Positions 4,042 to 62,769 of a DNA stretch of 62,769 nucleotides are shown one piece after another. Below the pieces are notes generated by a model, which ran no database searches, had not been told where the DNA came from, and was given only the letters and a program-made list of their open reading frames with translations. Position 1 is the first letter of the stretch; every line of letters starts with the position of its first letter. Position numbers and translations under genes: made by a program. Source of the stretch: Verrucomicrobiia bacterium (GTDB taxonomy: Bacteria > Verrucomicrobiota > Verrucomicrobiia > Opitutales > Cerasicoccaceae); the NCBI GenBank assembly GCA_030425485.1, contig JAUIAM010000023.1:5001-67769 (forward strand), read 5' to 3'.

Positions 4042-5351
4042 AGCTGCCCAAGCGCGACGCCCTCGTCTGGGCCCTCTACGACTGGGCCAATACCGGCTAT
4101 GCCATGATCGGCCTGGCCCTGCTCTTTCCCCGTCTGTATAAAACCTATTGGGCAGCGGAGCTCTCCGACGGAGACCAAACCTTTTGGTTTACGACTCTAA
4201 CCGTCGGTGCGGCCAGCTTGTGCGTATTCGTGCTCGCACCGATTCTCGGAAGCATAGCCGAGCTGGGCGGTATCCGCAAAAAGCTGCTCATGCGCTTTGC
4301 CACGGTGGGCATCGTGGCCTGCGCGGCCATGTCGCTCATTGAGGAAAACCAGTACCAACTGGCCACCCTGGTCTATATCGTAGGCACGGTCTGTTTTTAT
4401 AGCGCGAACATCTTTTTCGACTCGATGCTGGAGCGCGTTTCTCACGCCGGGAATCGCCACGCGATCAGCGGCATGGGTTTCGCCTTTGGCTACAGCGCGG
4501 GCTTCTTCCTGCTGGTCGTAATCCTCCTGGTGACGCAAAACCCGGGATGGTTCGGTTTTTCTTCCCCGCTTATCGCCAGCCGATTCCTGTTCGTATTCGC
4601 GGCGGCCTGGTGGGCACTCTTCACCCTGCCGCTGGCCCTGCTCTTTAAAGAAGAGCGCAAGGCCAACCCGCACAAGCTCCTCACCACGGCCAAGCTCGGA
4701 CTGGCCGAGGCGTGGCAAACGCTCAAGGACATCATACGCCAACGGCACATCCTGTGGTTTCTCATCGCCTACCAGTTCTATATAGATGGGGTAAATACCA
4801 TCATCACCACAGCCTCGAACTACGGCTCGACCATCGGCTTTGATGAAAAACAGATCTACCTGGCCTTTTTCTGCGTGCAGATCGCCGGCGTGCCCTTCGC
4901 CCTGATCTTCGGCTACCTGGGGCAAAAAATCGGCCCGCGGCGCATGATCTTCGTCGCTATCATGGTCTACATGTTTGTCAGCTTCTTCGGGGCCAGCCTG
5001 CAACCCGAGCCGATGTTCAGCCTGGGGGAGTTCAAAATCTACGAGATTTACCTGCTGGCGCTGTTCATCGGGATGTGTCAGGGCGGTATCCAGGCCCTGA
5101 GCCGCAGCTACTTCACCAGCATCGTCCCGCCAGATAAAACCGTGGCCTACTTCGGCTTCTACTCCATGATCGGCAAAAGCGCAGCCATTCTCGGCCCGAT
5201 GCTCATGGGGCTGGCCGCCGTGCTCTTTTACGATCCCAGTGAGCCGCAACTGAGCACCCGCATCGGCATGGGCATGCTCTCGCTGCTCTTCGTGGGCGGC
5301 GCGATTTTCCTCTCACTGGCCGGACGCGCCTCAAAAAAAGCCGAAGCCTAG
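4038..5351 (+). CDS. MFS transporter, UMF1 (Atg22-like) family
   Basis: 437 residues with about 12 predicted membrane helices. The N-terminus (RDALVWALYDWANTGYAMIG) carries the YDWANT-type motif typical of the UMF1/Atg22-like subfamily, and the C-terminal half has QALSRSYFTSIVPP, also characteristic. Family members include eukaryotic vacuolar amino-acid effluxers; bacterial substrates are mostly unknown, so none is assigned. It is the third gene of the coupled unit and begins inside the stop of the channel gene (ATGA). A weak GCCTCC/GGAGGC hairpin with a 14-nt loop follows at 5357-5382. Confidence 0.85.
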   Translation: MKLPKRDALVWALYDWANTGYAMIGLALLFPRLYKTYWAAELSDGDQTFWFTTLTVGAASLCVFVLAPILGSIAELGGIRKKLLMRFATVGIVACAAMSLIEENQYQLATLVYIVGTVCFYSANIFFDSMLERVSHAGNRHAISGMGFAFGYSAGFFLLVVILLVTQNPGWFGFSSPLIASRFLFVFAAAWWALFTLPLALLFKEERKANPHKLLTTAKLGLAEAWQTLKDIIRQRHILWFLIAYQFYIDGVNTIITTASNYGSTIGFDEKQIYLAFFCVQIAGVPFALIFGYLGQKIGPRRMIFVAIMVYMFVSFFGASLQPEPMFSLGEFKIYEIYLLALFIGMCQGGIQALSRSYFTSIVPPDKTVAYFGFYSMIGKSAAILGPMLMGLAAVLFYDPSEPQLSTRIGMGMLSLLFVGGAIFLSLAGRASKKAEA

Positions 5352-60883: not shown

Positions 60884-61069
60884 GGGCTTATGCCAGCCGA
60901 GAACCGGCCGCCTCGCAAGGCTAATCGACCCGCGCGAGCTGCCACAAAGGTAAATAATTTGCAAAAACCAAGCTGCAAAAACCCCTGAACGCCACGGCTT
61001 TAGACTGGCCAAGGGCCCAAGCTCCAGCTAGCGTCTGCTTTCATCTTCCGATGAAGACGATCCAACGCA

Positions 61070-62485
61070 ATGAAGGTTAAATTCTGGGGTACCCAAGGCT
61101 CACTTCCCGCGACCGTGAACGAGAAAACCGTTCGCGATAAGGTGTTTATGGCACTACAAGCCGCCCAGGGCTACCAACTCGACACCCCCGAAGCCATCAA
61201 CCACTTCATCGACGAGGAGCTGCCCTTTGCCGTGCGCGGCACCTATGGCACCAACACCTCCTGCGTCCAGCTTGCCAATCCCGGCGGCGATGTGGTTATC
61301 CTCGACGCGGGCTCCGGCCTGCGCGACCTCGGCCTCCACCTCGTGCACAGCGGCGTGGCCAAGCAGCCCACCACCTACCACATCATCATGTCCCACCTGC
61401 ACTGGGACCACCTCCAGGGCTTCCCCTTCTTCGTCCCAGCCTTCATCAAGGGCAACAAAATCGTCATCCACGCCTACCACCCGGAGACCGAGCAGTGCCT
61501 GCGCACCCAGATGTCCAGCCCCTTCTTTCCGGTAGACTTCGACAGCCTGGCCGCAGACATCAGCTTCAACATCATGGAGCCCTGCGCGCCCTTTGAGGTC
61601 GGCGGGTACAAGGTCACCAGCAAAGCTCAAAACCACCCCGGCACCTCCTACGGCTACCGCTTTGAAAAGAACGGCAAGGTTGTCGTCTACTCCACCGACT
61701 CCGAGCACAAGCAGGAGGCCTACGAGGAGGGCTACCCCTTTATCGAATTCTTCCAGGACGCCGACCTCGTCATCTTTGACGCCCAGTACACCATGGCCGA
61801 CGCCACCTTTACCAAGGCCAACTGGGGCCACTCCAGCAACGTCATGGGGGTCGAACTCGCCGCCCGCGCCCGAGAAGCCGGAGTGCGGTCGGTCGTGGTC
61901 GTGACGGAGACCATCGACGAGGTCGATCGCAACCTGCGTCTCGCGGACGAACACCCCGAGCTGCGGCTGGCCTTCGGGCTGTACCCGACCCATCTCGATG
62001 CGGAGCAGGCGGAGCGCTTCGTAGACGCCGTCCGCGAGCACCGCGACCGCCTGGTGGCCATCGGTGAGGTCGGTCTCGACCGCTGGAAGGTCAAGGAGGA
62101 ACAGGACCGTCGGTTGCAGCGCGAGCTGTTCCGCCGGTTCATCGGACTCGCCCGCGAGGTCGACCTGCCGCTCAACGTGCACTCCCGGTCCGCCGGCCAC
62201 TACGCCGTCGACCTGCTGATCGAGACGTCCGCCCCGAAGGTCCAGATGCACGCCTTCGACGGCAAAGTCGGGCACGCCCTGCGCGGCATCGAGGCGGGCT
62301 TCTATTTCTCGGTGCCACCGTCCATCGCGCGCTCCGCGCAGAAGCAGAAGCTGGTCCGGGCCCTGCCGGTGGAGCGGTTGCTGCTGGAGACCGACAGCCC
62401 GGTGCTCGGTGCGGACCGCGACCAGCGCAACGAACCGGCCAATGTCGTCGTGGCGCTGAACGCCATCGCAGACGCGATTCTCTGA
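61070..62485 (+). CDS. MBL-fold metallohydrolase joined to a truncated TatD-family nuclease (probable chimera)
   Basis: 471 codons. Residues 1 to about 262 are a metallo-beta-lactamase fold: MKVKFWGTQGSLPA, YGTNTSCVQL, HLHWDHLQGFPFF (HxHxDH), QNHPGTSYGYRF, FDAQYTMADATFTKANWGHS with the last His. From about residue 266 (AGVRSVVVVTET) the sequence is a TatD/TATDN3-type nuclease: LAFGLYPTH, AIGEVGLDRWK, LNVHSRSAGHY, MHAFDG, LLETDSPVLG and the end RNEPANVVVALNAIADAIL. The TatD part lacks its N-terminal HxH metal motif. Codon use changes at the same place. A contig join is more likely than a real fusion. Confidence 0.6.
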   Translation: MKVKFWGTQGSLPATVNEKTVRDKVFMALQAAQGYQLDTPEAINHFIDEELPFAVRGTYGTNTSCVQLANPGGDVVILDAGSGLRDLGLHLVHSGVAKQPTTYHIIMSHLHWDHLQGFPFFVPAFIKGNKIVIHAYHPETEQCLRTQMSSPFFPVDFDSLAADISFNIMEPCAPFEVGGYKVTSKAQNHPGTSYGYRFEKNGKVVVYSTDSEHKQEAYEEGYPFIEFFQDADLVIFDAQYTMADATFTKANWGHSSNVMGVELAARAREAGVRSVVVVTETIDEVDRNLRLADEHPELRLAFGLYPTHLDAEQAERFVDAVREHRDRLVAIGEVGLDRWKVKEEQDRRLQRELFRRFIGLAREVDLPLNVHSRSAGHYAVDLLIETSAPKVQMHAFDGKVGHALRGIEAGFYFSVPPSIARSAQKQKLVRALPVERLLLETDSPVLGADRDQRNEPANVVVALNAIADAIL

Positions 62486-62498
62486 CGCGCTCTGGGGC

Positions 62499-62769
62499 TC
62501 AGTCTTCCGCGGTCGGGATTCCGTCCAGCGACTCGGGGTTCTGCAGCGACGAGGTGTCGCCCAGTTCCTCGCCGAGGTACCTGGCACGCACCATGCGGCG
62601 CAGGATCTTGGCGCTACGCGTCTTGGGCAGGTCGTCGACGAAGACGATCTTCTCCGGCCTGTCGACCTTGCCGAGCCGGTCGACGATGGCCGTCTCCAGT
62701 TCGGCGCGGCATTCTTCCGTCGGCTCGACTCCGGCCTTGAGTACCGCGAAGCAGACGATCCCGGTGCCC
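62499..62769 (-). CDS. Acetyl-CoA synthetase-type ligase, C-terminal fragment
   Basis: 90 codons running off the window edge, with the TGA at 62499. The visible end has VDRPEKIVFVDDLPKTRSAK and ILRRMVRARYLGEEL, the C-terminal domain of acyl-adenylate ligases with the conserved catalytic Lys of KTRSAKI(L)RR (K of acetyl-CoA synthetase, often acetylated). The tail GDTSSLQNPESLDGIP is typical of acetyl-CoA synthetases. It is convergent with the TatD part, and its CGG/GTC-rich codons differ from the rest of the window. Confidence 0.75.
   Translation of the reverse strand, partial: GTGIVCFAVLKAGVEPTEECRAELETAIVDRLGKVDRPEKIVFVDDLPKTRSAKILRRMVRARYLGEELGDTSSLQNPESLDGIPTAED

Follow-up and report, generated by a model that had tools for sequence, protein, structure and literature searches.

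The window analyzed here, a stretch of 62,769 nucleotides (nt) from a Verrucomicrobiia bacterium of the family Cerasicoccaceae, corresponds to positions 5001–67769 of contig C48 (GenBank JAUIAM010000023.1). C48 is 67,769 bases long, so the last base of the window (62769, position 67769 of 67769) is also the end of the contig. Close to this end lies an open reading frame of 471 amino acids (aa) (61070–62485, plus strand), free of stop codons throughout, in which a metallo-β-lactamase (MBL)-fold hydrolase is joined to a TatD nuclease match. The Pfam domain Lactamase_B_2 spans residues 76–268 and TatD_DNase spans residues 264–468, and both exceed the Pfam cut-offs. The initial annotation had called an in-frame junction between the two proteins, and it is indeed present: the frame is open from end to end, and the DNA match to the congener G002 stops at 61872. 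The sequence to the right of this join is a contig-end tail of ≈0.9 kb, consisting of a TatD fragment and the end of an acetate–CoA ligase gene. The genome itself comprises 62 contigs and 3.81 Mb, and is rated as 98.2% complete with 0 contamination. The presence of short contigs (down to 1505 bases among the 60 seen) and of the foreign tail suggests that it was assembled from a metagenome.

The first part of the frame (61070–61872, plus strand) comprises 268 N-terminal codons of an MBL-fold metallo-hydrolase, with one base missing from the last codon. Its Lactamase_B_2 match, its identity to congeners and the G002 DNA match mark it as the organism's own gene. Both the MBL domain and the HxHxDH motif are present, the latter as the metal motif HLHWDH at 61394–61411. 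The MBL part was matched in 21 of the 36 genomes searched (including the organism's own), with 78–82% aa identity to three congeners and 66–71% to six other family members. At the DNA level, the window tracks G002 to position 61872, the end of GCCGCCCGCGCCCG, and departs from it at 61873. The G002 protein, 328 residues long, goes on with ...GVELAARARVRKLAIFHHEPTSSD...LAYDGLEMEI. In the 471-aa frame, the last ≈60 residues of the MBL protein are missing, and foreign sequence occupies their place.

Loci for comparison were obtained from 19 of the 20 other genomes that matched the MBL part; G027 (best match 37% identity) returned no locus and was left out. The expectation that relatives continue with an MBL C-terminus was borne out in all 19 loci, where this C-terminus was matched over 56–60 of 60 positions at 30–100% identity. 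None of the 19, which include the three congeners and the six further family members, had the MBL–TatD architecture, a TatD match or a match to the ligase tail. An RNase D-like gene lies just downstream of the MBL gene in 16 of these loci, and was not found in L045, L046 and L048. Within the family, the two genes form a conserved pair in this order, seen in nine of nine loci (L079, L080, L081 and L038–L043). When the whole fused protein was used as a query against a plasmid collection, 391 records matched, each over less than 80% of the query; the 20 matches listed all fell inside residues 1–273, the MBL half.

A search of the organism's own genome for the missing MBL C-terminus found it in one place, at C17:118440–118550 on the minus strand. 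Contig C17 has 118,550 bases, which puts the missing piece at its very end. The piece encodes the last 37 residues of the MBL protein, 76% identical to G002, and is followed by an RNase D-like gene (C17:117802–118389), as in the relatives. No foreign DNA was found at the C17 end, where the congener match begins at the first base of the contig. When both contigs were placed on the G002 stretch, C48 matched to base 863 and the C17 match began at base 934, leaving a gap of 70 nt. No 12-mer is common to the C48 end (61001–62769) and the terminal 1500 bases of C17. Most likely, the true MBL gene begins on C48 and continues on C17, with a short assembly gap in between. In the true genome the two contigs are thus probably neighbors, separated by ≈70 nt of the MBL gene, and can therefore be ordered and oriented.

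The second part of the frame (61873–62485, plus strand) is a fragment of a foreign TatD-family gene, as judged from its PF01026 match, its relatives and its position in a tree. It aligns to positions 20–231 of the 253 in the PF01026 profile, and the frame stops three codons later. As the initial annotation had noticed, the N-terminal HxH metal site is absent. With the tail protein as query, GTDB r220 genomes yielded 27 related TatD loci. In 25 of these, DxHxH is present with L or I as the next residue, while L027 and L032 gave only HxH with the pattern used; DxHxH was located upstream of the join position in 19 loci. The C-terminus is also incomplete: the fragment ends ...ALNAIADAIL (62440–62485) where L082 has ...SLGVIAELKGVCVEEVRERVFDNTVRLYGEAILG, and is ≈25 codons short. 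This looks like an in-frame deletion, which could have been present in the donor or be a second artefact.

Sixteen of the 27 TatD loci belong to Acidobacteriota, 14 of them at 61–64% aa identity to the tail and the other two at 52% and 59%. The remaining 11, from Desulfobacterota and further groups, are at 38–57%. Identity to the TatD proteins of the organism's own family is 28–34%, and an intact TatD gene of its own lies on contig C35. In a TatD tree built from 45 proteins, after 11 loci repeating others had been left out, the tail pairs with G103 (support 99/91) and next with G104 (97/90), and the C35 protein groups with the TatD proteins of the congeners (100/98). The tail DNA was matched by 82 of 148 genomes of the class to which a Thermoanaerobaculia (Acidobacteriota) metagenome-assembled genome (MAG) belongs. 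Searching the two halves separately, a check that had been proposed with the initial annotation, thus led to the organism's own genus for the MBL part and to the class of this MAG for the tail.

Beyond the fused frame, and convergent with it, are the last 89 codons of an acetate–CoA ligase gene (62499–62768, minus strand), cut by the contig end. They match PF13193 (AMP-binding_C) and positions 557–643 of 649 in NF001208. This ligase tail is 74–76% identical (aa) to the ligases of G103, G104 and G120, and 44% identical to the organism's own ligase on contig C53. What the initial annotation had described as an acetyl-CoA synthetase out of place in its neighborhood is thus only the end of a convergent gene. 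In G103, a genome of the class of the Thermoanaerobaculia MAG, the TatD gene (256 aa, with the head DTHTHL) and the ligase gene (675 aa) are both intact and convergent, overlapping by 4 nt; the distance between the two is ≈0.1 kb in G104 and ≈3.7 kb in G120.

Sequence composition also changes at the join. The trinucleotide distance between the tail and the window was 0.365, compared to a mean of 0.172 (standard deviation 0.041, maximum 0.296) for 68 interior segments of equal length, none of which reached the value of the tail. The distance from the tail to the pooled acidobacterial loci was 0.186. Codon use had been described as richer in CGG, GTC and CTG downstream of the join, and these shares do rise, although the counts in the TatD part are small (22 Arg, 24 Leu, 23 Val, 23 Ala and 7 Phe codons). 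From the MBL part plus three upstream genes to the TatD part, the share of CGG goes from 0.14 to 0.32, that of CTG from 0.38 to 0.62, GTC from 0.45 to 0.57 and GCG from 0.12 to 0.39, and TTT falls from 0.49 to 0. In a survey of contig starts for foreign tails, which covered 60 of the 62 contigs (far ends were included only for C48 and C17), 14 all-N starts were dropped, and none of the 46 usable starts was nearer to the acidobacterial profile than to that of the window. The all-N starts were those of 13 short contigs (1505–2646 bases) and of C48 itself.

The likely place of the join is the run GCCCGCGCCCG (61862–61872, plus strand), which codes for Ala-Arg-Ala-Arg; G002 has the same bases up to the end of ...GCCGCCCGCGCCCG and diverges from the next base on. 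The MBL proteins of G001 and G002 read ELAARAR at this point, and many acidobacterial TatD proteins read ARARDAGV or a close variant. The two Ala-Arg-Ala-Arg stretches share the same codon phase, and the nearest relative, L082, reads RRAA at the join position. Similar ARAREAGV-like text had been claimed for both parents. This is correct at the protein level, but no exact 11-base match was present in the acidobacterial TatD genes examined. The length of the run that the two parents would share at the join is inferred.

Taken together, these observations leave little doubt that the fused frame is a chimeric contig end and not a biological fusion, and no MBL–TatD protein is expected in the organism. 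The initial annotation, too, had favored a misassembly or chimeric read over a functional fusion, a preference now backed by the MBL end at the edge of C17, the absence of the fusion from all 19 relatives' loci examined and the different lineages of the two halves. The decisive evidence is that the missing MBL C-terminus and the expected RNase D-like gene both turn up at the edge of C17, and our weighting of the explanations depends on that contig end. C48 follows the organism's own MBL gene to ≈61872, and the gene resumes 70 nt further on, in congener coordinates, at the end of C17. In protein and composition, the 0.9 kb past 61872 groups with genomes of the class of the Thermoanaerobaculia MAG, and it looks like the DNA of a different, acidobacterium-like organism. 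The two DNAs may have been joined within a short, GC-rich segment that codes for Ala-Arg-Ala-Arg in either gene; the join could have arisen during assembly or in a read or library fragment that was itself chimeric. As both genes use the same reading frame here, the artefact would resemble an in-frame fusion.

We considered the possibility that the join exists in the organism as the result of horizontal transfer. In that case, DNA of a distant lineage would recently have been inserted into the MBL gene, splitting it and fusing it in frame with a TatD that has no head, and the break of C17 at the second junction would be a coincidence. No stop codon interrupts the frame at the join, and an insertion would also leave both MBL parts in the genome on separate contigs, as observed. 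However, the C17 end matches the congener from its first base and is free of foreign DNA, the 0.9-kb tail holds a TatD fragment and a ligase end but no mobile gene, the TatD part has no metal-binding head, and the genome already has an intact TatD and a ligase of its own. We consider such a transfer very improbable. A functional MBL–TatD fusion enzyme typical of the lineage would account for two domains above the Pfam cut-offs in one frame, but the HxH head and the C-terminal end are missing from the TatD part, as are the last ≈60 residues from the MBL part, and the relatives (0/19 loci) already refute the fusion as a lineage trait, so that it was rejected; there is next to no chance that this explanation is correct. 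It is equally hard to credit that a minority strain in the sample carried the rearrangement as a local population variant, since this would require a join to a distant lineage just where the contig with the rest of the normal gene breaks, 70 nt away.

Several points weigh against a chimeric contig end or qualify the evidence for it. The 14 acidobacterial TatD genes compared match 8–9 of the 11 bases at 61862–61872 and none matches exactly, and a run of 11 bases is shorter than the k-mers usually employed by assemblers. The donor was not found: among the 148 genomes of the nearest class, there was no match longer than 100 nt above 77% identity. The bootstrap of the TatD tree had not settled. 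In composition, two of the 68 interior window segments were also nearer to the acidobacterial profile than to that of the window, and one of the 46 usable contig starts, that of C60, was as odd as the tail; it is a CRISPR (clustered regularly interspaced short palindromic repeats) array. The proximity of the TatD and ligase genes in three genomes (G103, G104 and G120) weakly supports the tail as a real piece of a foreign chromosome; at least four genomes (G078, G079, G080 and G091) have the two matches on separate contigs, and the ligase tail was matched in none of the 27 related TatD loci.

The array at the C60 start (L147, G000:C60:1–2500, at 32–722) consists of 11 exact repeats of 31 nt with spacers of 34–36 nt. 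Tandem Repeats Finder reported nothing on this contig start.

The value of the case is in quality control only: a genome rated as 98.2% complete and 0 contaminated appears to hold a chimeric contig end, which annotation would present as a novel fusion enzyme. The approach used here works without reads: the end that a gene lacks is found at the margin of a different contig, together with the neighbor gene expected there.

Compared with the known families, the two halves of the frame differ in what they retain. Measured against the MBL-fold metallo-hydrolases of PF12706 (Lactamase_B_2), the first half keeps HLHWDH and has close relatives in the same genus, but its last ≈60 residues are foreign in C48. 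Measured against the TatD-related DNases of PF01026, the second half aligns to positions 20–231 only and, without the HxH head and with a short C-terminus, is a fragment and not a working gene. Metagenome assembly is documented to produce inter-species chimeric contigs (PMC3100316). The C48 end is alike in that one contig contains the DNA of two species and the join yields a false gene call; it differs in that the parents of C48 appear to be much more distant from each other and that the join is situated near the end of the contig.
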